Source: an uncultured Oscillospiraceae bacterium (GTDB lineage Bacteria; Bacillota; Clostridia; Oscillospirales; Oscillospiraceae). Taken from it: a stretch of 44,766 nucleotides of DNA. The notes under the pieces are model-generated. The model made no database searches, had not been told where the DNA came from, and saw only the letters and a list, made by a program, of their open reading frames with translations. The position numbers were made by a program, and so were the translations under genes. Positions within the stretch are counted from its first letter, which is position 1; every line of letters starts with the position of its first letter. The stretch lies in assembly GCA_947625945.1 (NCBI GenBank), contig CANQQI010000003.1, positions 1-44,766 on the forward strand, in the 5' to 3' direction. Positions 1 through 14,053 of the stretch are shown here, piece by piece.

Positions 1-1596
1 CTCCACGCCATGGCCGTGCAGCCCGGAGACCGGACCCGCACCATGGAGGATTTCGCCCAGAAGCTGTTCCAGGAGGAGCAGCCGGTCTGGGAGACCCCGC
101 CGAAACAGGAGGCGCCCAAACAAGAGGCCCTGAAGCAGGAGGCGCCGAAACAGGACGCTCCTAAAGCGGCGGTCCCCGATGGGGAGGGCCCGGCGAAATC
201 GCCGGCGATCCGTCAGCTCTGGCAGGAAAAGGTCATCCCTCAGATCCTGCGCGTCCCGCCAAAGAAGTGGGCCCTCACCGGCGGTATCGCCCTGGCGGTG
301 GTGGCGCTGATCATCGCCGTGGTCCTGTGGCCCCGGCAGGCGCCCCAGTCCACGATCCAGGATCTGCCGACCGGCACTACCGCCTCTCAGGCCCCCGCGC
401 GGCAGCCTACCGCGCCCAACTTGGAGGGCTCCACGCCCACCGAAACGTCTGCCCCGCCCCCTGAAACCTTTACCCAGCCCCCTGAAACCACGGAAAGCGG
501 GCGGGGCTCCGTCACGAACAGCGACGGGTTCGTGTTCCGGATCGTGGACAATCAGAACGCCTCCATCATCGGCTATACCGGCACCGAACGGATCTGCGAC
601 ATCCCCGACAGTATCAACGGCATCCCCGTCACCGCCATTGAAGACGGCGCCTTCGTCGGCGTGGAGGCGGCGGAATGGGTCCTGCTTCCGGACACACTGA
701 AGACCATCGGTGCCAATGTCTTTGCCGGGTGCCGGGGCCTGCGCATGTTGGAGGTCTTTTCCGCCGTAAGCTGCAAGAAGGACGCCTTCGCCAATTCCGA
801 TATTCATCTGGTCTGGGTCTACGACTCCACCTGCGGCACCTCCGGCTGGGACCTGCCGGACGATATCCGGCTCTACCAGCGGGGCAAGGACGACGGTTTC
901 GGAAAGTGGAAGGAGTGCGACAACCTGGAGGACGGCACCTTCTACCTCCTGACGGACCAGACCACCGCCGTGGTGGTGCTGCTCTCCGGCACCGAGGTCA
1001 ACATCGAGCTGCCTAACTCGGCGGAGTACGCCTCCACGTTTTACGAGTTCGTTTGGATCGCGGAAGGGGCCGACGCCGGCGTCCGTCCGGAGACCACTGT
1101 GGCGCTGCCGCCCAACTGCCGCTTTGATTTCAGCCTCTGCAAGAGTCAGGGAGGCGGCGTTACGGCGTTTAACTCCCTCTACGACGATACCCTCGCCGAC
1201 TTCTGGATCGTCACCTGCGCCTTCTGCGAGTCGATCAACAACGCCCGTCCCCAGGGCGCCCCGGCCATTTTGCCGGACCCGGTGCTGTGCGACGCGGCGA
1301 ACATCCTCTGCCAGGAGGAGTTCTTCAACAGTAGCGGCGAACGCTCCAATGGGCAGAGATGGGCCACCGCCATCAAGGAAGCGGGTCTACAGACCTGGAG
1401 CTTTGCCAGATTGTCCTGCGGCCACGGCACTTTTAGCAAGATGAAAGATAACGTGGTAGAGAAATTCGCCCACGCCATCGACGACTCGTCCGTATCCGAG
1501 GTCCTGGGCCAATACTTTACCTACATGGGCGTCGCCAAGTGGGAAGACTTTGACAGCGGAAGCTACTGCTGGGAGATTATTCTGTTGGTCCCCTAG
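1..1596 (+). CDS. Membrane-anchored Ser/Thr protein kinase, C-terminal part (5' end outside window): end of kinase domain, PKQEA-repeat linker, TM helix, BspA-type LRR and CAP-like ectodomain
   Basis: Frame is open from base 1 (LHAMAVQPGDRTRTMEDFAQKLF), matching the kinase C-terminus of the next ORF (LHALAVQPGNRTHSMEEFAQKLF). TM segment WALTGGIALAVVALIIAVVLW; LRR_5-like IPDSINGIPVTAIEDGAFVG...LPDTLKTIGANVFAGCRGL. Confidence 0.85.
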   Translation, partial: LHAMAVQPGDRTRTMEDFAQKLFQEEQPVWETPPKQEAPKQEALKQEAPKQDAPKAAVPDGEGPAKSPAIRQLWQEKVIPQILRVPPKKWALTGGIALAVVALIIAVVLWPRQAPQSTIQDLPTGTTASQAPARQPTAPNLEGSTPTETSAPPPETFTQPPETTESGRGSVTNSDGFVFRIVDNQNASIIGYTGTERICDIPDSINGIPVTAIEDGAFVGVEAAEWVLLPDTLKTIGANVFAGCRGLRMLEVFSAVSCKKDAFANSDIHLVWVYDSTCGTSGWDLPDDIRLYQRGKDDGFGKWKECDNLEDGTFYLLTDQTTAVVVLLSGTEVNIELPNSAEYASTFYEFVWIAEGADAGVRPETTVALPPNCRFDFSLCKSQGGGVTAFNSLYDDTLADFWIVTCAFCESINNARPQGAPAILPDPVLCDAANILCQEEFFNSSGERSNGQRWATAIKEAGLQTWSFARLSCGHGTFSKMKDNVVEKFAHAIDDSSVSEVLGQYFTYMGVAKWEDFDSGSYCWEIILLVP

Positions 1597-1701
1597 CCCA
1601 CGGGGCGCCACGGCCCGAAGGGCCCGAGAAATAAAGCGCTTTCCGCGTCTTTCCACGGGAAGGCCCCGCGTTTGTGTTTTTTTAAGAAGGAGGGTTATGA
1701 T

Positions 1702-4272
1702 ATGGAGTACTGCCCCCACTGTATGCGTCCCGCTTCCGGCTCCAGGTGTCCTTACTGCGGCGGAAACATGCACTGGACCGGTCAAGTGGGGATCGATCTG
1801 CTGGTTGGCTCCATTCTGACCAGCGGCAACGGCCTACGCACCTATCAGCTGGGCGCGGCCCTGGGCAAAGGCGGCTTCGGCATCACCTACGCCGCCCTGG
1901 AGGTCAACTCCCACCGCCGGATAGCGGTGAAGGAATATTTCCCCACCTACTGCGCCTTCCGCGCGGGAAACGGCCGGGACATGCAGGTGATGACCGGCCA
2001 GGAGCAGTTGTATCGAAAGGGCCTGAATAGCTTCCTGGAGGAGGCGAAGATGCTCCTGTCCCAGGACGATCTGCCCACGCTGGTGAAGGTGGTGGACTTT
2101 TTCCAGGCCAACGGCACCGCCTACCTGGTGATGGAGTTTCTGGACGGCGTCCCCCTGCACCAGAAAATGGTGGAGCTGGGCGGGCGCTTCCCGGCCCAGG
2201 TCCTGCTGCCCACGCTACCACCCCTGTTTTCCGATCTGGGGACGCTCCACGCCCGGGGGGTCATTCACCGGGATATCAGCCCGGATAATATCATGTGGAT
2301 GCCAGACGGCACCCTGAAGCTGATGGACTTCGGCTCCGCCCGGTCCACCAACACCGGCAAGAGCATGACCATGCAGATGAAGCAGGGCTTCTCCCCCATC
2401 GAGCAGTACACCCGCAGAGGGCAGGGCGCATGGACCGACGTGTACGCCCTGGCCGCCACCATTTACTATTGCCTCACCGGCGTCACGCCGCCCGCCTCCG
2501 CCGAGCGGCTGGAGGAGGACCCCATCCGTATGCCCAACGAGCTGGGGGCCGGGCTGACACAAGCGCAGGAGCAGGCGCTGCTCCATGCCCTGGCGGTGCA
2601 GCCCGGAAACCGGACCCACTCCATGGAGGAATTTGCCCAGAAGCTGTTCTGGGAGGAGCCGCCGAAGCAGGAGGTCTACGTTCCTGCCCCGCCGGTCCCG
2701 GAGCCGCCCCAGCCGGTCCAGCAGCCGGTCCAACCCTCAATTTCCCAGCAGCCGCCGCAGCCGCCGGTCTCCCAGCAGCCTCCGCAGCCGCAAATTTCAC
2801 CCAGCCAGCAGAGCTATCAGCAGCAGGGCCAGTCTTTTACCCAGCGGCAGACCCCCTCCCAGCCGGTTTACCAGCCCCCGAAATTGGGCTTCAAAGCGGT
2901 GAAGGAAAAAGTCCAGACCTGGTGCGCGGTCCACAACATCCCGCCGAAAAAGCTCGCTATCTTCGGCGGTATTGCCGTGGCGCTGGTGGCGCTGGTGGTG
3001 ATCATCCTGGTGCTGGCCCTGGGGTGGAACGGTTCGCCCTACACGCTCTACGCTCCCAACGATTACACCGCCTCCACCAATGCCCCCACCGGCTCCCTCG
3101 TTGCCCAGCCCACGCTCCCCAACATTCCCCCCACGACCACCCAGCCCACCGAACCGACCGAGGACACAGCGCCGGATACCATGATGGTGGGCGACTACCA
3201 GGTGCGGATCATCGACGAGAACAACGCCACCATCGTGGGCTTTGTGGGCGACGAGATCGGCGACATGCCCATCGAAGCCGACGGCGTGCCCATCACCGCC
3301 ATTGGCGACGATGCCTTCTACGCGGACGGGCGTGGGACGAAGACCCGGGAGAATATCTGTCTTCCCGCCTGTCTGAAATCGATTGGGGAGCGGGCCTTTT
3401 CAGGCTGCGATACCCTGCGCATGGTCTATTGCTTCTCCAATGTCACGGTGGGCCGGGACGCCTTCTCGGATACCGGTCTGCGCTGCGTGATCCTGACCGA
3501 CGACAACGCCAAGATCCGCAATCCCGGCGCGCTGGGTGGCCTGGTGCGGATCTTTGAGCGCAATGTCCCCTTTGAAATCGTCCCGGATTACAATGTGGAC
3601 GCCTACTATATGGTCGACGAGGTCATTTACGGCTGGGATTCCACCGAGCCCGACGCCATCGTGATGGACCTCCCCTCCGGCCTTTCCAACTTCGAGGTGC
3701 CGGAGACGATCCTCTGCATGGACGGCGAGGAGCGGGAAGTCCAATGGATCGAGAAGGATTCCATGAAAAAGGTCGCAAGGTCGGTAAGGATCGGCCTGCC
3801 TGCTTTCTGCCTCTTTGACCCGTCCCTCTATGAAAGCCATCCCAATACCTTCTACGCCTTGGAGTCCGAGACCTTGGCGGAGGACTGGATCTACCTCATG
3901 CGGGCGGTGGAGGCCATCAATGATTTTCGGGGCGGCAACGCGCCGAATATCCAGCCCGCTGTCGACCTCACCTGGGCGGCCTACGCGATGGCTTTGGTGA
4001 AATACACCGGCGACAGTGAGACCATCGAGTTCACCTGGTCCGATGTGGTCGATATTTTCCGCCCGGAGGGATATCGGTTCGGCATCTGCACCGATGGCAC
4101 CGCGTCCGTCTCCGGTCTGTTGGAGGCGCTTGCCACAGATGAATACGCCGGCCTCATTCCCGCGGAGCAAAGCGCCGACTACGCCGGGCAGGTCTACAAC
4201 AGCATCGGCCTGGCCCACTATCTGACGGAGGATGGAGAGATGTACTGGATCGTCCTTTTGGTGATCGACTAA
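1702..4272 (+). CDS. Ser/Thr protein kinase with N-terminal zinc ribbon, TM helix, BspA-type LRR and CAP-like ectodomain
   Basis: MEYCPHC...CPYCGG zinc ribbon; GKGGFGITY glycine loop, VKEYFP, HRDISPDN, DFGSAR, TDVYALAATIYYCLTG; Pro/Gln-rich linker; TM LAIFGGIAVALVALVVIILVLAL. Start set at ATG 1702 behind aagaaggagg rather than 1672. Confidence 0.92.
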   Translation: MEYCPHCMRPASGSRCPYCGGNMHWTGQVGIDLLVGSILTSGNGLRTYQLGAALGKGGFGITYAALEVNSHRRIAVKEYFPTYCAFRAGNGRDMQVMTGQEQLYRKGLNSFLEEAKMLLSQDDLPTLVKVVDFFQANGTAYLVMEFLDGVPLHQKMVELGGRFPAQVLLPTLPPLFSDLGTLHARGVIHRDISPDNIMWMPDGTLKLMDFGSARSTNTGKSMTMQMKQGFSPIEQYTRRGQGAWTDVYALAATIYYCLTGVTPPASAERLEEDPIRMPNELGAGLTQAQEQALLHALAVQPGNRTHSMEEFAQKLFWEEPPKQEVYVPAPPVPEPPQPVQQPVQPSISQQPPQPPVSQQPPQPQISPSQQSYQQQGQSFTQRQTPSQPVYQPPKLGFKAVKEKVQTWCAVHNIPPKKLAIFGGIAVALVALVVIILVLALGWNGSPYTLYAPNDYTASTNAPTGSLVAQPTLPNIPPTTTQPTEPTEDTAPDTMMVGDYQVRIIDENNATIVGFVGDEIGDMPIEADGVPITAIGDDAFYADGRGTKTRENICLPACLKSIGERAFSGCDTLRMVYCFSNVTVGRDAFSDTGLRCVILTDDNAKIRNPGALGGLVRIFERNVPFEIVPDYNVDAYYMVDEVIYGWDSTEPDAIVMDLPSGLSNFEVPETILCMDGEEREVQWIEKDSMKKVARSVRIGLPAFCLFDPSLYESHPNTFYALESETLAEDWIYLMRAVEAINDFRGGNAPNIQPAVDLTWAAYAMALVKYTGDSETIEFTWSDVVDIFRPEGYRFGICTDGTASVSGLLEALATDEYAGLIPAEQSADYAGQVYNSIGLAHYLTEDGEMYWIVLLVID

Positions 4273-4296
4273 CGCGGATATAGGAGTGATTGCCCT

Positions 4297-7200
4297 ATGG
4301 AAAAACACTATTGCCCCTATTGCATGACCCCCGTTGTCCCCGGGGAGCCATGCCCCAACTGCGGCCTCACCGGCGGCAGCTACACCTCCCAGCCCCATCA
4401 GCTGCCCGCCGGTACCATCCTTGCCGGCCGGTATCTGCTGGGCCGGGTCCTGGGAGAGGGCGGCTTCGGCATTACCTACATCGGCTGCGACACCCGGCTG
4501 GAGCTGCGGATCGCGGTCAAGGAATACTACCCGGTGAACCATGTGTCCCGGAACTGCCGGGTGTCCAACGCCGTGAACTGCTTCACCGGCGTCGCCGGGC
4601 AGGGCTTTGAAAAGGGCCGGGAGCGGTTCATCCGGGAGGCCCGGACCATGGCCCGGATGGACAAGACCCCCCAGATCGTGGCCGTCCGGGACTACTTTCA
4701 GGAGAACAACACCGCCTACATCGTCATGGAATATGTGGACGGCACCACCTTCAAGGAGCTGGTGGCCCAGAAGGGCGGGAAGATCCCCGCTTCCGAGCTG
4801 CTGCCCATGGTGGAGCCCCTGTTCAAAGCCCTGGAATCCATGCACGCCCTGGGTCTGATCCACCGGGATATCAGCCCCGACAATCTGATGCTGGAAAACG
4901 GCATGGTCCGCCTGCTGGACTTTGGGTGCGCCCGAGAGTCCGCCGCCAGGGGCAGCGAGACCATGACCATCGTCCTCAAGCAGGGCTACTCCCCGGTGGA
5001 GCAGTATCAGCACAAGGGCCAGGGGCCCTGGACGGACGTCTATTCCCTGGCCGCCACCATGTACTATTGCCTTACCGGCGTCACGCCGCCCCAGGCCCTG
5101 GACCGGATCTGTGACGATGAGCTGGTCCCGCCCAGAAAGCTGGGTGCGGACCTGACGGAGGCCCAGGAGCTGAGCCTGCTCTTCGGCATGGGCCTGCAGC
5201 CCACCCGCCGGTTCCGCTCGGTGCGGGAGTTCTACGCCTCGCTGTACCAGGGCGTGCCGGTGCCGGTAAAGCCCCAGGTGCTCTACGGGCACCGCTACGC
5301 CCAGGAGGAGACCCGTCCGGCTCCCCCTCCCGAAATTCCTTCTGTAGAGGAAAAGGACGAAGAAGCCGTTCCCATTACCGGCCAGATGGAGTCTTCTTCT
5401 GATATAGCGCCCGAAATTGCTCCGCAAGTGGAGGATGTGCCGGAACTGGAGGAACTGCCCGCTCAGGAAGCTTCGGAGGAGGCCCCGGAGGACGAGCCCT
5501 GGCACTTCCCCCCGGTCCCGGAACAGCCCGCCCCGCCGGAGGAGACGAAAAAATCCAAGAAAAAGATCTGGATCCCCGTGGCGGCCTGCGGCGCGGCGGT
5601 GATCCTGGCGGTGTCCCTTCCGCTGATGCTGCGGCAGGGCCGCACCGATCCCACGGTACCCGGGGCCAGCACCGGCGGCGCCGAGTCCACCGCGGAGTCC
5701 ACCCAGCCGGAAGGCAGCACCCTGTGGCTCAGCGGCGACTGCACAGCGTCCTTCTCCCAGGCGCTGGCGGACAGCTCGGTGGGGGAAATCGTGCTGGAGG
5801 CGGGGAGCTGGGTCGATTGCGAGGAAGGCGATCTGGTGATCAACAAGCCGGTCCTCATCGAGGAGGGCGCCAGTATCGACTGCCCCTCCATCTCCGTGAC
5901 CGTGGCCCCGGGCGTCGCCCTCACCCTCCGGGGATACCTGCGGGTGGAGGACCTGACCGTCCAGGGGTACCTGCGGGTGGAGGACCTGACTGTCCAAGGC
6001 AATGTGGAGGTCACCGACGCGGGCATTCTGGACGTGCAGCGGCAGACCGGTGTGATCGGCGGCAAGATCGATGTGATCGGCGGCGAGATCGAGGGGAGTG
6101 CCTCGATGCTATCCCAGGGGCTGCTGACGGTCTCCGGCGGCGGCCAGGTGTCCATTAAAGGCAACGGGGCCTTGAGCGCCGGCTGCTACCTGCTGGAAAG
6201 CGAGGATTCCATCGCTATTCAGGGGGGCTCCCACAATCTGGACTTTGGCTACAATGCCGCCATCGTGAACGAGGAGGCGCTGTTCGCCGACGCCGTCCAT
6301 GTAAGCGATTTCCAGGAGCTGAAAAACGCGGCGGAAGCCGGCGCCAAGGCCGTCGTGATCGACGGCAGCGTTACCGTTCCCGGCGACTTCCCGTTTGACC
6401 CCGACGCCGCGCTGACGATCTCCCCGGAGGGCGCGCTGATCTTGGAATCTTACGACACGCCCGTCAGCGTCGACCTTCTGATCAATCACGGCACCCTGGC
6501 AGGTCCGGTAGATCCCCGGCGCTTCCTCAACTACGGCAGCGCCGAGACCAGCATCTATCCGGCCCAGCTCCGGGACGGCCAGTGTCAGCTCTTTATCAAT
6601 CTGGGCGAGACCGATGTTCACGGCGTGACCTGTTCGGGGCAGATATTCAACCTGGGCGTGGTGCGGTACACCGGGGAAAGCAAACACTTCAGCAGCCCGC
6701 CGCTGGAGTCCTTCTTCTTCCAGCGCGATTTCCTCAACGCCGCGTCCGCGCGGTTGGAAGTGGACACCGGAATGGTCTTTGAACTGGGCGGTATCATGAC
6801 CAACAACGGCGCCATCGTGGTCCAGGGGGGCGGCGACTTCCGCAACTACGGCCAAATCAATCAGGTCACGGAGTCCGCGTCCATCGATCTGTCCGGCAAC
6901 ATGCTAAACGACGGGTTCATGAACGTCATCAGCGGCCACTTCCAAATGGGCGCGGACAGCTCCGTCGATGGCAACGGCATTTTCTACGTCTACTACGGCG
7001 CCGATGGCGGCGCCCTGGCCTGGGATAACCGCATCACCTGCCGCACCTACCTGGAAAGGGGCGAAGGCACGGATCAGGAGGCCACCACCCTGGAGCAGCT
7101 CCGCGCGATCCTGGCCGAGGGCGGCGCCGGCTGCGTCGTCATCCCCAAGGGGACCGTCATCCAGGTCCCGGAGGATCTTCAGGTGTATACCTCCATCATG

Positions 7201-8037
7201 GTCCAGGGCGAGCTCCGTATGGCCCCCGGCACCACGCTGTCCCTGTTCGGCGCCTTGTTGACGGTGGACGGCGGCACGCTGGAGGTGGACCGGATGGAGG
7301 CCCATGACGCCTCCCAGCTGGTGGGCCGTGTAGGTTCCAACATCCTTTTCCAGCCCGGCGGCCTGCTGCGGCTGGACGGGGGCAGCTGCGGAAGCTTTCT
7401 ATACTCCAGACGGGAGCTGAACGGCGCGTCGGTGGAGCTGGAGGGGGCGGGCACGATCCTCGTGATGGATGGCGTGGCCAACTGCGGCGACCATCTGACA
7501 CTGAGCGGCGGCGCCAGCGCCTTTATCCGCAATCTGGACGGCTTTTCCGTGGCGACGCAGGTGCAGGTAGAGAATGACTCCTCTCTAACGGTCTTTGGAG
7601 GCACCCATTTGTCCAACGGGGCCACCCTGACCCTCCGCGATTCTTTCATGCGCAACGCGGGCTCCTTCTTCATGGATGACTCCACATCCCTGGTACTGGA
7701 GGGAGAGCGCGCGTTCCTCAGCTCCTACATGGGCAACCTGAATCTGAACAGCGGTTCCAACATCGAGATCCGCGGCGGTTACCTGGAGATGTGGTCCTGG
7801 GGCGATCAGCAAAGGGAGATCTACGCCGACATCGTGAACGACGGCACCCTCCGTATCGCCACCGCCAATCTGGGCGGCCATGTGGTCAACCGGGGCGAGA
7901 TGCGGATCGCCGAGTCCTCCATCGTGACGGTTTACGGCACCCTGGAAAATGACGGCGTGATCTACACCGAGGACGATTCCTCCGCCCTGCTTGCCGACGG
8001 CGGCGAAATCACCGGCCCGGAGCCGGTCCGGCGGTAA
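4297..8037 (+). CDS. Ser/Thr protein kinase with N-terminal zinc ribbon, TM helix and large repetitive beta-solenoid-like ectodomain
   Basis: MEKHYCPYC...CPNCG; GEGGFGITY, AVKEYYP, HRDISPDN, DFGCAR; TM IWIPVAACGAAVILAVSLPLML; about 750 aa of short beta-rich repeats (e.g. TVQGYLRVEDLTVQG, GGKIDVIGGEIEG, LNSGSNIEIRGG). Confidence 0.9.
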   Translation: MEKHYCPYCMTPVVPGEPCPNCGLTGGSYTSQPHQLPAGTILAGRYLLGRVLGEGGFGITYIGCDTRLELRIAVKEYYPVNHVSRNCRVSNAVNCFTGVAGQGFEKGRERFIREARTMARMDKTPQIVAVRDYFQENNTAYIVMEYVDGTTFKELVAQKGGKIPASELLPMVEPLFKALESMHALGLIHRDISPDNLMLENGMVRLLDFGCARESAARGSETMTIVLKQGYSPVEQYQHKGQGPWTDVYSLAATMYYCLTGVTPPQALDRICDDELVPPRKLGADLTEAQELSLLFGMGLQPTRRFRSVREFYASLYQGVPVPVKPQVLYGHRYAQEETRPAPPPEIPSVEEKDEEAVPITGQMESSSDIAPEIAPQVEDVPELEELPAQEASEEAPEDEPWHFPPVPEQPAPPEETKKSKKKIWIPVAACGAAVILAVSLPLMLRQGRTDPTVPGASTGGAESTAESTQPEGSTLWLSGDCTASFSQALADSSVGEIVLEAGSWVDCEEGDLVINKPVLIEEGASIDCPSISVTVAPGVALTLRGYLRVEDLTVQGYLRVEDLTVQGNVEVTDAGILDVQRQTGVIGGKIDVIGGEIEGSASMLSQGLLTVSGGGQVSIKGNGALSAGCYLLESEDSIAIQGGSHNLDFGYNAAIVNEEALFADAVHVSDFQELKNAAEAGAKAVVIDGSVTVPGDFPFDPDAALTISPEGALILESYDTPVSVDLLINHGTLAGPVDPRRFLNYGSAETSIYPAQLRDGQCQLFINLGETDVHGVTCSGQIFNLGVVRYTGESKHFSSPPLESFFFQRDFLNAASARLEVDTGMVFELGGIMTNNGAIVVQGGGDFRNYGQINQVTESASIDLSGNMLNDGFMNVISGHFQMGADSSVDGNGIFYVYYGADGGALAWDNRITCRTYLERGEGTDQEATTLEQLRAILAEGGAGCVVIPKGTVIQVPEDLQVYTSIMVQGELRMAPGTTLSLFGALLTVDGGTLEVDRMEAHDASQLVGRVGSNILFQPGGLLRLDGGSCGSFLYSRRELNGASVELEGAGTILVMDGVANCGDHLTLSGGASAFIRNLDGFSVATQVQVENDSSLTVFGGTHLSNGATLTLRDSFMRNAGSFFMDDSTSLVLEGERAFLSSYMGNLNLNSGSNIEIRGGYLEMWSWGDQQREIYADIVNDGTLRIATANLGGHVVNRGEMRIAESSIVTVYGTLENDGVIYTEDDSSALLADGGEITGPEPVRR

Positions 8038-8054
8038 AAAGTTCTAAAAATTTA

Positions 8055-8088
8055 GGGGCCCTGCCATTCGGCAGGGCCCCAATTTTTT
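8055..8088. terminator. Bidirectional intrinsic terminator between convergent genes
   Basis: ggggccctgcc-attc-ggcagggcccc followed by aatttttt; A-rich on the other side. Confidence 0.85.
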
Positions 8089-8097
8089 GAAAACCGT

Positions 8098-9186
8098 TCA
8101 GCGGACGTCCTCGTAGAGAATGTCGATCACCTTTTCCATCCGCTCGCTCATGCTCTCGTCCCCGGTGGCGGTGAGGGCGTATAGCACCAGCCAGTCAAAG
8201 GCGTTCCGGGGGTCCAGCTCCGGCATTCCGCAGTCGCTGAGCATGGCGTTGACGCTCCACCAGTGGCCGTCCAGCCGGTCCTCGATGGTCATGTAGTCCT
8301 CGTCCAGCTCGGAATACTCCCCACCCACGGAGTTCTCCGTGATGATGTAGAGCAGGAGCAGCAACTTCCGGGGCACCTCCTGCCGCTGGGCCATGATATT
8401 TTTCAGGGAGGTGGCGTTGGGCCAGTTCCGCTTGATCAGCTTCTGGATGGGGGAATACCCCTGCCGGTCGGAGCCGGAGGGCATGTGCATAGGCAGGTAT
8501 TCGCTCATCACCCGCTCCAGGGAGTAAAATTCCTCCTGGGCGCCGTTGCTGGAGTCCGGCTGGGTGAGGCAGCGCATATACTGCTGAAAATAGTAGTACG
8601 CCCGGAGATGGTAGGAGCCGAAATAGGGCAGATTCTCCTGGTAAAACCGCCGCAGATCCGCCTCCGTCTCCGCCCGCTGGAACTGCAGCTGGACCCGGTG
8701 GGTCAATTCGGAGTCCGTCTCCTCGGCAATGGCCGGGACCGGCGGCATGGACTGGTACAGCGCCTGGGCCTGGTGATAGCCCCATCCGTTACGCAGGCAC
8801 CAGGTATAGACCAGGTCCCGGCCGTTGCGGTAGTTGATCCCGTAATCGGTACACATGCCCAAAAGCTGGCTGACCTGGTCCTCGTTCAGGTCCAGGGCGA
8901 AGGCCACCCGGTACACATCCTCCCGGGTGTTGGGCTTATAGGCGCTGGAGAGCCAGTTGTAGATCTTCCGCTTCACCGATTCCAGGGGCGTCCCGTCCTC
9001 GGCGAACAGGGCAGCCACCCGCAGGCTCAGATCCGGATAGGGATACATCTCCTGCAACACGTCCCCAAAATAGCGCAGGGGGATCTGCTGGTCCCGCAGG
9101 TACACCGCCGCCTTCGCCGGGGTCATACTCCCCGAACGGATGCGGCTGTACGCGTCCTCTGATGTTCTTGTAAATGTGCTTGCCAA
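8098..9186 (-). CDS. Uncharacterised 362-aa protein, predicted cytoplasmic, mostly helical
   Basis: Long intact ORF in an otherwise empty interval, convergent with the kinase array. No family recognised with confidence. Confidence 0.75.
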   Translation of the reverse strand: MASTFTRTSEDAYSRIRSGSMTPAKAAVYLRDQQIPLRYFGDVLQEMYPYPDLSLRVAALFAEDGTPLESVKRKIYNWLSSAYKPNTREDVYRVAFALDLNEDQVSQLLGMCTDYGINYRNGRDLVYTWCLRNGWGYHQAQALYQSMPPVPAIAEETDSELTHRVQLQFQRAETEADLRRFYQENLPYFGSYHLRAYYYFQQYMRCLTQPDSSNGAQEEFYSLERVMSEYLPMHMPSGSDRQGYSPIQKLIKRNWPNATSLKNIMAQRQEVPRKLLLLLYIITENSVGGEYSELDEDYMTIEDRLDGHWWSVNAMLSDCGMPELDPRNAFDWLVLYALTATGDESMSERMEKVIDILYEDVR

Positions 9187-9380: not shown

Positions 9381-9707
9381 TCATTTCCCGCTTTGATTTT
9401 GCCGGATGGTGTCGTTAATGGTGGCGCGCAGGCCCCGGCTGACCTTGAAGACCGGCTTAAATCCCGCCGGGACCAGAGCGTCTTCCATGGTCTTGGGGTT
9501 CCGGGCCATCCGCTCGCTGACGGGACGCAGCTCGAAGGCGCCGAAGCCGGTGAAATTGACGCCCCGGCCCTGGCACCAGGTGTCCTCCAGAATGTCCAAA
9601 AACGCCATCGTTACCTCGCTGGCGTCCGCGTCGGACAGACCGGTCCTCCTGCTCAGCTCCTCCACAAACTCCCTGCGAAACATATTATCATTTTTCATTT
9701 TCATCAT
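9381..9707 (-). CDS. HU/IHF-family DNA-binding protein
   Basis: FRREFVEELSRRTGLSDADASEVTMAFLDILEDTWCQGRGVNFTGFGAFELRPVSERMARNPKT, the HU fold signature. Start chosen at 9707 behind a GAGAGG motif. Confidence 0.85.
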   Translation of the reverse strand: MMKMKNDNMFRREFVEELSRRTGLSDADASEVTMAFLDILEDTWCQGRGVNFTGFGAFELRPVSERMARNPKTMEDALVPAGFKPVFKVSRGLRATINDTIRQNQSGK

Positions 9708-10330
9708 TTTTCCTCTCTTCCGATTCGTTGAAATCCATGGGACCGCGTCGGGCAAATCCCGGGAACAGTTGATCCGCGTATAGGTTAATAATACCAATTT
9801 CCCCCGAAAATAGCAAGTATAAAATTCAAAACGGACAAAAAAAGTTGGCCTTTTCCAAGATCCGTCCGGGAGGCTTGCACAAAATCGTGAAAAGATTTCC
9901 CTGGGGAAGACAAAAAGAGGGGCCGTATTTAGCGTGTATTCTTATTCACCGTATTTTATTCGTCAGAAATCCCGGCTCGAAAAAGCGCGGCAAATAGGTA
10001 TCATTTTCAACTGTTTTTCGTTCTCGCGGCGGGCGTTTGCACAAAATGATCGTCATTTGGGTCGCCGATAAAAATTCTGTGCAAACAGCGCCCACTTCCG
10101 CAGATTGGCGGAGCGGTTTTCTCCCCTGCGGAGGGCAGATCGGCCATACCCGGGGGCGCAACCTCTATCCAATCATATTTCATATTTCCTTTTGCACAGC
10201 GGCACGAAGTTTCAGCGGGAAATCACGGAGTCGAAAAAGGTAAGTTTTCGCCACGGACGGCCATTTTTCCGCCCTTATTTTCTCCCTTTTTCGTCAATTT
10301 GCCCAAAAGGCGCCCGCCGGCGGGCAAAAA

Positions 10331-10376: not shown

Positions 10377-12242
10377 TCATTCCGCTGTGTAATACTGGGC
10401 CTGGGCGGACCAGAGCTGGTAATACTTCCCCTCCTCGTCCGCCACCAGCGCCTCGTGGGAACCCCGCTGGACGATCCGGCCGTCCTGGAAGACCGCGATC
10501 TCGTCGCAGAATTTGCAGGAGGACAGGCGGTGGGAGATGTAGATGGCGGTCTTGTCCCCGGCGATCTCGTCGAATTTGCTGTAAATTTCCGCCTCCGCGA
10601 TGGGGTCCAGGGCGGCGGTGGGCTCGTCCAGGATGATAAAGGGGGCGTCCTTGTACAGGGCCCGGGCAATGGCGATCTTCTGGGCCTCGCCGCCGGAGAC
10701 GTCCACCCCGTCCTCGGAGAGATTCTTGTAGAGCATGGTGTCCAGGCCCTGGGACATTGCCTCTAAGCGGTCGCCGAAGCCGGCGTCCACCAGCGCCCGG
10801 CGGGCCCGGTCCCGGTCATATTCCATGCTGCCCGCCACGTTGGCCCCCAGGGGCTGGGCGAGGAGCTGAAAGTCCTGGAACACCACGGAGAACAGCGTCA
10901 TGTAATCGTCGTACCGGTACTTGCGGATATCGATGCCGTTTAAGAGGATCTGCCCCTCCTGGGGGTCGTACAGGCGGCACAGAAGCTTGATGAAGGTGGT
11001 CTTGCCGCTGCCGTTTTCCCCCACGATGGCCAGGCGGGAGCCCACGTTGAATTTGAGGCTGGCGTGGCGCAGGGCCCAGTTTTCCGCACCGGGGTATTTG
11101 AAGGACACGTCCCGAAATTCGATCTCATACCGGCGGTCCATCCGCTTTTCCGTGGTGAGGGACCCCTGGTACATGGCGTTGGGGATGTCCAGGAAGGCGA
11201 AGGTCTTCTCCAAATAGCCGGCGTTGGTCTCCAGGGCGCCCACCATGCTCACCAAGGTGAAGAGGCTCCCCACCATGGCCGTGGCCGCGCCCACATATTG
11301 GGTGACGCTGCCCACGTCAAAGGCGCCGCCCCAGGCCTTCAGGCAGGTGAACACATAGATGGCGCCGGTGATCAACACGGTGACACAGGCCCCCAGGCTG
11401 GCGTAGACGCCCATTTTTCCCTGGGCCATCCTTCCGATGGAGCCGTCGGCGCCGAAGGAGGTGTTTGTGGACCAGTAGGCGCGGACCAGGCGCCGCTGAT
11501 CGTACATGCGGATATCCACGCCCCGCTCCCGGTCCATGCCGATGAAGCCGAAATGGCCGAACAGCCGGTTTCCGAAGGTGGCCTCCTCCGCGACGCTGCT
11601 CCAGCATTTTGTGGAGGCGGCGCCGCACATCCCCGCCAGGGCGCTGACTCCCACCATGAGGCCGGCCAGGACCAAAATGAAGATCGGGTTATTCAGGATG
11701 GTGAGTCCCCCGGCGGAGGCCGGGACCGGCGCGGTGAACAGGCTCACCGTCAGGGCCACGCCGCTGAAAATTCCCACCACGCCGCTGATAAAATCGCTGT
11801 AGATGCGCTCCACGTGCATCAGTCCCCATCCGGACCAGTTCTCATTCTGCTGGATCTGGGCCCGGAGATCGTGGGTCTCCTGCTTATCCAGCTGGGAAAA
11901 GTCCAGGGACAGCATTTTTTGGATGAACAGGATCTCTTTTCTTCTCACCAGGTCGCCGTACAGCGTCGCGTACCGGCGCAGAAGAACGGCGCTTAAAGCG
12001 GAAATGAGGCCCACGCACCCCACGCCCGCGATCACCCAGTTCCACAGGACCTCCGCCCGGCGCAAAGTGGCAAGCTCGTTCAGGACCCGGGCCGAGAAGA
12101 ACACGGTGACATAGGGGGCGACGGCGCTAAAAAGGCATTGCAGTGTCAGGACCGGGAAAAATTGGGGGCAGACCTTGTGCAGCGCCCGAATGGCCCGCAG
12201 ATGAAGGGCGGCGGCTTGGCGCAATGTACCTTTCTTTTTCAT
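10377..12242 (-). CDS. ABC transporter, fused permease/ATP-binding subunit (half 2)
   Basis: Walker A GENGSGKTT, signature VSGGEAQKIAIARAL, Walker B FIILDEPTAALD; N-terminal TM segments. ATG 12242; stop of the upstream gene is at 12245. Confidence 0.93.
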   Translation of the reverse strand: MKKKGTLRQAAALHLRAIRALHKVCPQFFPVLTLQCLFSAVAPYVTVFFSARVLNELATLRRAEVLWNWVIAGVGCVGLISALSAVLLRRYATLYGDLVRRKEILFIQKMLSLDFSQLDKQETHDLRAQIQQNENWSGWGLMHVERIYSDFISGVVGIFSGVALTVSLFTAPVPASAGGLTILNNPIFILVLAGLMVGVSALAGMCGAASTKCWSSVAEEATFGNRLFGHFGFIGMDRERGVDIRMYDQRRLVRAYWSTNTSFGADGSIGRMAQGKMGVYASLGACVTVLITGAIYVFTCLKAWGGAFDVGSVTQYVGAATAMVGSLFTLVSMVGALETNAGYLEKTFAFLDIPNAMYQGSLTTEKRMDRRYEIEFRDVSFKYPGAENWALRHASLKFNVGSRLAIVGENGSGKTTFIKLLCRLYDPQEGQILLNGIDIRKYRYDDYMTLFSVVFQDFQLLAQPLGANVAGSMEYDRDRARRALVDAGFGDRLEAMSQGLDTMLYKNLSEDGVDVSGGEAQKIAIARALYKDAPFIILDEPTAALDPIAEAEIYSKFDEIAGDKTAIYISHRLSSCKFCDEIAVFQDGRIVQRGSHEALVADEEGKYYQLWSAQAQYYTAE

Positions 12243-12244
12243 GG

Positions 12245-14053
12245 TCAAAACTCCTTCCCCTCCTGATAGTACCGGCTCTGAACCTTAAAGAGCTTGGCGT
12301 ATTCGCCGCCCAGGGCCAGCAGGCTGTCGTGGGTGCCCTCCTCCCGAATTTGGCCCCCGTCGATCAGGATGATCCGGTCGCAGAACCGGGTAGAGGCCAG
12401 CCGGTGGGAGATGAACACCGAGGTCTTTCCCTTGGTCATCTCGCTGTATTTCATGTAAATGTCATTTTCGGCGATGGGGTCCAGAGCCGCCGTGGGCTCG
12501 TCCAGCAGCAAAATGGGGCCGTCCTTATAAAGGGCCCGGGCCAGCATCAGCCGCTGGGTCTCGCCACCGGAAAACAGGGCGCCGTCCAGATAGACCTCCC
12601 GGCCCACGTGGGTCTCCAGCTCCTTGGGCAGCTTCTGGATCGCGGCGGTGAGCCCCGCCTTTTCCACACAGTCCCCGATCCGGTCGTAGTCGACGCCCTC
12701 CGTGGTCTGGGCGATCTCCTCCGCCACGGTGACGTCCAGAATGGAAAACTCCTGAAAGACGGCGCTGAACAGGTCGTAGTAGCGCCGCCGGTCAAAGGTC
12801 CGAATGTCCTGGCCATTCAGCAGGACCGTCCCCGCCGTGGGATCTAAAAGGCCGCACAGGAGCTTGACCAGGGTGGTCTTCCCCGCACCGTTCAGGCCCA
12901 CGATGGCCAGCTTCTCCCCCGGGCGGACGGTCAGATCGAGATCGTGGAGGGTGTCCTCCTGGGCCCCGGGGTAGCGGTAGGAGACCCCCTCCAATTTCAG
13001 CTCATAGCCATTTGCCTTTGGAACCGCCGCCCCGCCGTCGAACCGAAATGGCTCGGGGTAGTCCAGAAATTCCCGGACCAGGGAGATGTCCAGGCTCTCC
13101 TTATGCAGCGTCGACATCTCCCGCAGAATGCCCATGACCCAGGTGGTAAAGGTGGTCACCGCCGTAAAGTACAGCAGAAACTCGGAGACGGGCAGCCCTT
13201 CATGGAGGGTCTTGTTGATCAGCACCACATAGGCGATGCCGTTCCGGGCCATGGTCAGCGCCACCGCCGTCAGATCCGCCAGCACCTCCACCCGCTCCCG
13301 GCGGAGGATGAAATCCAGGTAAAGATCGTGGGCCTGGGTCAGCAGCTCCTCAAGCCAGTTTTGCAGGCCGAAGACCCGGATGTCCTTCGCCAGGGCCACC
13401 GATTCCGATTTGATCTGGAGGTAGTTGACCTTCTGGAAGTATTTTTCTTCCTCCTCCTTGTGGGCGTACCGCCAGCTGTTGGCGTGCCGGGAGACCAGGA
13501 ACCCGGCCACGCAGGTGGCCACGATCACCAGGAGCAGCAGCCCGTTGATCCGGGACAAAATGCCCAGGTACACCACCAGGCCGCCGATGTTGGCCAGCAG
13601 CATGGTCAGGGTCTGCCAGATGTGCTCTGTCGCCTGGCTATTGCTGTTGCAGGCGTCGTAGGCTTTTTCCCGCAGCTTAATAAAGGGCTCCTCCAGGGTG
13701 TTGGGGTAGGAGGTGACGCAGCACTTTTCGCTGATTTTCCCGATGATCCCGCTGCGCACATCCACCCGGGCGAACAGGGTGTTTTCGTCAATATACTGGT
13801 CGAGGCCCTGGATCAAAAAGAGGGCGGCGGTGAAGGCCCCGATGGTCCCCAGCAGCTCCCCTATGGGGGCCTGCCGCTCCACCCGGGCCAGAACCTGGGG
13901 GGCGATGTAGAGCTGGGTCAAATTGAGCAGGACCACCAGGATTGCTGATAACACACAGAAGAAAAGCACCCGCTTGCGGGTCTTCCAGGCAAGGCTAACC
14001 ATCCACCCCACGTTTTGAAGGACGTTGTATTTCGGTTTTTCCTTTGGCTTCAT
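12245..14053 (-). CDS. ABC transporter, fused permease/ATP-binding subunit (half 1)
   Basis: Walker A GLNGAGKTT, signature FSGGETQRLMLARAL, Walker B ILLLDEPTAALD. Confidence 0.93.
   Translation of the reverse strand: MKPKEKPKYNVLQNVGWMVSLAWKTRKRVLFFCVLSAILVVLLNLTQLYIAPQVLARVERQAPIGELLGTIGAFTAALFLIQGLDQYIDENTLFARVDVRSGIIGKISEKCCVTSYPNTLEEPFIKLREKAYDACNSNSQATEHIWQTLTMLLANIGGLVVYLGILSRINGLLLLVIVATCVAGFLVSRHANSWRYAHKEEEEKYFQKVNYLQIKSESVALAKDIRVFGLQNWLEELLTQAHDLYLDFILRRERVEVLADLTAVALTMARNGIAYVVLINKTLHEGLPVSEFLLYFTAVTTFTTWVMGILREMSTLHKESLDISLVREFLDYPEPFRFDGGAAVPKANGYELKLEGVSYRYPGAQEDTLHDLDLTVRPGEKLAIVGLNGAGKTTLVKLLCGLLDPTAGTVLLNGQDIRTFDRRRYYDLFSAVFQEFSILDVTVAEEIAQTTEGVDYDRIGDCVEKAGLTAAIQKLPKELETHVGREVYLDGALFSGGETQRLMLARALYKDGPILLLDEPTAALDPIAENDIYMKYSEMTKGKTSVFISHRLASTRFCDRIILIDGGQIREEGTHDSLLALGGEYAKLFKVQSRYYQEGKEF

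Follow-up and report, generated by a model that had tools for sequence, protein, structure and literature searches.

Three consecutive Ser/Thr kinase genes at the edge of a contig from an Oscillospiraceae bacterium, which probably belongs to the genus Faecousia, raise two questions: do they form a modular surface-sensing system distinct from the PASTA kinases, and do their conserved kinase halves carry swapped ectodomains, as the original prediction held? The stretch of DNA analyzed here (the window; 44,766 nucleotides) is the entire contig C3 of a draft genome that comprises 224 contigs and 2.19 Mb and is 92% complete.

Architecture of the three kinase genes

As predicted, the genes follow one another on the forward strand, at positions 1–1596 (gene 1, receptor kinase A1), 1702–4272 (gene 2, A2) and 4297–8037 (gene 3, B). 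Base 1 of the window is the contig edge, where the 5′ end of gene 1 is missing. This part is found on the minus strand of contig C134 (L006:3-956), which overlaps the start of the window exactly over 77 bp and encodes the zinc ribbon and the kinase of A1. The join of the two contigs is supported because the gene order of the window recurs on one contig of G147, which apparently corresponds to L050, where the A1 gene is unbroken. With the C134 half included, all three proteins show the common architecture that had been proposed: a CxxC zinc ribbon, a Ser/Thr kinase, a low-complexity linker, a single strong transmembrane (TM) segment and a C-terminal half. The GxGGFG, Lys, HRD and DFG motifs are all intact in the sequences of the three kinases, and PF00069 matches gene 2 (E 2e-25) as well as gene 3 (E 1e-31).

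The part of A1 within the window begins with the end of the kinase (1–78) and continues with the linker, the TM segment (about 265–345) and an ectodomain in which BspA-type leucine-rich repeats (LRR) precede a CAP-like fold, as assigned from the translation, the contig overlap and a structural model searched with Foldseek. In A2, the zinc ribbon (1702–1821) and the kinase (1822–2661) are followed by a P/Q-rich linker (2662–2946), the TM segment (2947–3051) and an ectodomain with LRR at about 3202–3561 and a CAP-like region at about 3847–4269. The zinc ribbon and kinase of B occupy 4297–5271; an E/P-rich linker and the TM segment (5563–5637) lead to a predicted β-solenoid ectodomain (about 5674–8034). 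A terminator-like hairpin on both strands at 8055–8080, recognized purely by its match to the consensus, separates the gene for B from a convergent gene. No sigma-70-like promoter was found in 1400–8400, and an attenuator between genes 1 and 2 was rejected, as the RNA folds no better there than shuffled sequences.

Given one TM helix per protein and the types of domain present, all three ectodomains would lie outside the membrane. The model of the A1 ectodomain (mean pLDDT 86.6, pTM 0.83) matches BspA-type LRR structures in the PDB (Foldseek; 4gt6 with E 1.6e-6, 4oju with a TM-score of 0.66 by target length) and the CAP/SCP structures 4d53 and 4ifa (probability 1.00, E 0.03–0.06), while the Pfam CAP model gives no match at E up to 1. 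From secondary structure and sequence, we read the LRR as the front part and the CAP-like fold as the back part. A2 exceeds the Pfam cut-off for LRR_5 (28.4 versus 27.7 bits); A1 stays below it at 23.1 bits, although its model matches BspA-type structures. The B ectodomain is modeled as all-β and repetitive (pLDDT 79.9, pTM 0.76); its best PDB matches in Foldseek are Ag43-type adhesins and β-helix lyases with low TM-scores, and we read it as a probable β-solenoid. The claim that the three genes carry different extracellular modules thus holds for gene 3, which is unrelated in its C-terminal half, but not for genes 1 and 2, whose ectodomains are homologous at about 30% identity.

Partner genes and related kinase systems

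The array was also thought to extend to the left. The cluster does continue on C134, but with partner genes, none of which encodes a kinase. Read in the direction of A1, these specify a short FHA fragment (short TM-FHA), a zinc-ribbon FHA protein, a TM-PP2C, a cytoplasmic PP2C and, last, a trypsin-like membrane protease that ends in an FHA domain (trypsin-TM-FHA, hereafter protease-FHA); A1, A2, B and the convergent gene complete the cluster in this order. The order FHA, TM-PP2C, PP2C, protease-FHA, kinase A, kinase B recurs on many Oscillospiraceae and some Lachnospiraceae contigs. Because this order is kept while the genes further upstream vary from locus to locus, the cluster behaves as a module, and spacing and order suggest that it is co-transcribed. 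Among 136 genomes of the genus, 40 of them of high quality and with draft status limiting all counts, the kinase subfamily occurs in 29 (11 of the 40 high-quality genomes). The protease-FHA protein is encoded by 22 of the 136, and 20 of these also have the kinase (hypergeometric 4e-15, kinship ignored). In a phylum-wide sample, four of 300 genomes match at E 1e-80, including that of the window.

The convergent gene (8098–9186, minus strand; working name XRE-like) encodes 362 amino acids. Its homologues often follow the recurrent kinase A/kinase B cluster in convergent orientation and adjoin kinase B in many loci; within the genus the gene is present in 13 of 136 genomes, 12 of which also have the kinase (hypergeometric 1e-8, kinship ignored). 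The protein family shows a mean column identity of 66%, higher than that of the kinase ectodomains, and searches of Pfam and the PDB returned nothing convincing for it. We regard its product as a candidate output regulator, although the gene forms a separate transcription unit and is missing from several kinase-bearing genomes, which we counted against this role. Just past it lies a gene for an HU-type DNA-binding protein (9381–9797, minus strand; PF00216, E 1.2e-19). Further on, two neighboring proteins (10377–14053, minus strand) contain TM segments as well as ABC-transporter ATPase motifs recognized by eye, and have the look of a half-transporter pair.

Among bacterial transmembrane Ser/Thr kinases, the PASTA kinases and PpkA are the best known. 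The closest solved kinase to those of the window is PpkA (5hnv), with 229 bits for the profile and 166 bits for A2 alone, as compared to 131 and 73 bits for PknB; moreover, most kinases of the class share the HRDIS motif with PpkA. PpkA works with the PP2C PppA and with Fha in the threonine-phosphorylation pathway of the type VI secretion system (T6SS). The periplasmic domain of PpkA differs between P. aeruginosa and S. marcescens, and that of S. marcescens is bound by RtkS, a periplasmic regulator (PMC6082577). The likeness to the PpkA-PppA-Fha systems of P. aeruginosa and S. marcescens comprises a PpkA-like TM kinase with HRDIS and an extracytoplasmic domain, which in PpkA too varies by species (PMC6082577), as well as a PP2C and an FHA protein encoded together with the kinase. 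The operon differs from them in its several kinases, two PP2Cs, protease-FHA, zinc ribbons, and LRR-CAP and solenoid ectodomains. The PpkA-like kinases and their PP2C and FHA partners might also govern a secretory or contractile machine, in the way that PpkA-PppA-Fha controls the T6SS; given that neither T6SS VipA (PF05591) nor WXG100 was found in the window's genome, a draft at 92% completeness, and that the upstream genes vary between loci, we consider such a role quite unlikely. For the lack of VipA and WXG100 matches, we do not file the operon as a T6SS member; it may nevertheless work like the PpkA pathway.

The PASTA kinases (PrkC, StkP, PknB) likewise combine a cytoplasmic Ser/Thr kinase, a linker, a single TM segment and an extracellular C-terminal sensor. 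The three genes could encode ordinary PrkC/StkP-type kinases that sense the cell wall and have unusual ectodomains: the PASTA kinase model of NCBIfam (NF033483) matches them weakly (107 and 159 bits), and two relatives in the class (L122:14699-17731 and L119:6207-9419) do bear PASTA repeats, which indicates that PASTA sensors sit on PpkA-like kinases too. However, both scores miss the cut-off of 450 bits, Pfam detects no PASTA domain in genes 1–3, the genome has a separate PASTA kinase that is only 26–31% identical, and PpkA is the closer relative. The operon kinases further differ from PASTA kinases by HRDIS instead of HRDIK, by their tandem copies and by their FHA and protease partners. We therefore judge the PrkC/StkP explanation unlikely, and the predicted modular class of receptor-like kinases distinct from PASTA kinases is supported. 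Another membrane kinase of the same genome (L007:6735-9752, plus strand) is of a different kinase type, with fn3 domains and a Pkinase score of 50.8 bits; it adjoins a protein that starts with a zinc ribbon (L007:5267-6589, minus strand).

A role in anti-phage defense, with the kinases as sensor or effector, is suggested by the PADLOC models PD-T4-6 and mad6, which match the kinase domains with E values down to 1e-46. The PADLOC matches are confined, however, to kinase, trypsin and PP2C domains, which are common to non-defense proteins; the two FHA/TM-PP2C partners tested and the convergent gene remain unmatched, and no match points to the system-specific partners of PD-T4-6 and MADS. As the kinases, moreover, bear ectodomains, a defense function appears highly improbable.

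Two further groups of kinases invite comparison. Six kinases with a YARHG ectodomain are noted in the excerpts of Coggill and Bateman 2012 (PMC3355149) consulted here; in these, the kinase is joined to an extracellular domain with a presumed affinity for peptidoglycan, and the array L099 also contains a YARHG member, whereas tandem arrays accompanied by FHA and PP2C do not feature in the excerpts. According to extracts from PMC11032199, the expanded Ser/Thr kinases of Planctomycetota and Myxobacteria are likewise membrane proteins that have been duplicated, in part tandemly, and whose periplasmic domains vary; they differ in having WD40 or TPR repeats, and no conserved FHA/PP2C/protease operon is described in these extracts. 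A classification of bacterial kinases into 42 families is cited in an extract of PMC12599244. The operon is mechanistically of a known kind, and our search of the open-access literature returned no published description of this arrangement.

History of the kinases and their ectodomains

The kinases of A1 and A2 are 80% identical to each other and about 45% identical to that of B; with the PASTA kinase of the same genome, A and B share 26–31%, so that the three are closer to each other than to that enzyme. In the kinase tree, A and B form separate clades with support of 100/100. The near-identical DNA noted at the kinase ends of genes 1 and 2 is found at 8–48 and 2588–2628, where 36 of 41 positions agree; high similarity covers ~70 nt and ends where the linker begins. 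These sequence comparisons support A1 and A2 as paralogues from a tandem duplication, in agreement with the original prediction, and B is an ancient paralogue, which makes the difference between the A and B ectodomains one of old paralogy. Consequently, the proposed swap of ectodomains does not hold for this locus: between genes 1 and 2 it is ruled out by the homology of the ectodomains, and between genes 2 and 3 by the kinases themselves, whose ancient split is as deep and is tracked by the ectodomain difference.

Across the class, ectodomain types do change. On a tree of 61 kinases, the ectodomain type requires 11 changes (minimum 5), as compared to a mean of 29.6 after shuffling, which implies that ectodomains are mostly inherited with their kinase and undergo some turnover. 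The sister kinases L052 (TM only) and L054 (LRR-CAP) exemplify the latter. Unrelated ectodomains on near-identical kinases are found in L115 (kinases 100% identical), L098 (85%), L103 (71–81%) and L099 of Butyrivibrio sp. MB2005 (76–78%); the range of types in these loci and across the rest of the class includes LRR_4, SBP_bac_3, YARHG, C-type lectin, PASTA, BspA/DUF285 and RCC1. L103 (7098–16910), from Candidatus Egerieimonas intestinavium, comprises five tandem receptor kinases; of the four scanned with Pfam, two carry LRR_4 and one SBP_bac_3. The tandem pair at L115:8097-12190 has identical DNA over 255 codons and unrelated C-terminal halves, and reflects either a recent event, whether conversion or duplication, or a fault in the assembly.

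Copy number and ectodomain both vary among the relatives of the window's locus. The set A1-A2-B is present in G000, G147 and L078 as well as in G145, where a contig break falls within A1; the closest species (G145, G147, L078) thus retain all three genes, which is not true of every relative. G023 has A2-B, and G149, apparently the same as L078, has an extra A-type kinase on a separate contig, with no overlap between its two contigs that would place a fourth kinase in the array. In G001, G005, G040, G041 and G141, an LRR-CAP kinase A adjoins the protease-FHA gene and B was not found there. G009 and G042 have B together with a kinase A that retains the TM segment without an ectodomain, and the kinase A of G007 is without a detected TM segment. 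As some relatives have no ectodomain, not every member of kinase A is a receptor. A lineage expansion is seen in the congener G133, with 13 class kinase matches across many contigs.

The similarity of the A1 and A2 kinases might reflect concerted evolution, that is, gene conversion that repeatedly homogenizes the kinase segments of tandem receptors while the ectodomains diverge, so that the receptors stay coupled to one pathway; this would add to a shared-output reading of the operon rather than replace it. Within one genome, dS between A1 and A2 is 0.29–0.31 in the kinase, 0.8–0.9 in the zinc ribbon and 0.6–1.6 in most parts of the ectodomain, and the kinase value resembles that between G000 and L078 orthologues (0.21–0.31). 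At identical residues, fourfold-degenerate sites differ in 18 of 88 cases in the kinase and in 28 of 56 in zinc ribbon plus ectodomain (p 4e-4), although part of the residue identity in the diverged segments has arisen by chance, so that silent differences are overstated there. The contrast is similar in G147 and L078 and is not seen between orthologues; in addition, A1 of L078 has an A2-like linker. Contrasts are stronger in L073 (9/97 versus 59/137) and in L115, where 100% identical kinase DNA meets unrelated ectodomains, albeit in a metagenome assembly in which misassembly is possible. Conversely, of three genomes subjected to a permutation run test for conversion, one gave a significant result (p 0.011, as compared to 0.46 and 0.49), and the tree continues to sort the kinases by paralogue. 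The number of kinase sites that group by species (12 versus 38) was not taken as proof of conversion, since silent-site homoplasy could produce it. On balance, the odds that such repeated homogenization operates appear even; partial homogenization of the A1 and A2 kinase segments themselves is likely, though not proven.

Probable convergence of the receptors on a shared output

We estimate at roughly two in three the probability that A1, A2 and B constitute the receptor end of a phosphosignaling operon in which several surface receptors feed one shared FHA/PP2C output. This explanation draws on the shared architecture, the FHA/PP2C/protease-FHA cluster, its recurrent order, the co-occurrence of kinase and protease-FHA, the kinship to PpkA and the ectodomain models. 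The receptor-kinase operon is real and self-contained, with its architecture, intact catalytic motifs, gene clustering, A1/A2 duplication, old A/B split, and variation in copy number and ectodomain legible in the DNA; its role in the cell would be as follows. The LRR-CAP or β-solenoid ectodomains, presumably outside the membrane, may sense something at the cell surface, whereupon a ligand or clustering would bring about dimerization and autophosphorylation of the kinases, as proposed for PpkA. The substrates of the kinases would then be the FHA partners themselves, or shared targets to which the FHA domains bind, and the two PP2Cs would reset the signal. Through the protease-FHA protein, phosphorylation might be linked with an extracellular proteolytic step, in either direction. 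As all three receptors have a single set of FHA and PP2C partners in common, they probably converge on one output, which the product of the convergent gene might regulate. Cross-talk among A1, A2 and B is plausible, since the kinases of B. subtilis cross-phosphorylate widely (PMC4166321).

In a bolder and rather doubtful generalization, gut Clostridia would harbor widespread, hardly described multi-receptor kinase operons: exchangeable sensors (LRR, CAP, β-solenoid, solute-binding, lectin, YARHG, PASTA) would be mounted on kinase halves whose likeness gene conversion and selection maintain, and would feed one FHA/PP2C circuit with a dedicated convergent regulator. As for the locus itself, the operon of these gut bacteria combines a PpkA-like kinase module with variable sensors and several receptors per circuit, in a genome where the T6SS marker VipA was not found. 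Should the receptors indeed share a single FHA/PP2C output, the operon would provide a compact natural system for studying the integration of multiple surface signals via Ser/Thr phosphorylation, and would equally lend itself to asking how duplicated kinases stay interchangeable.
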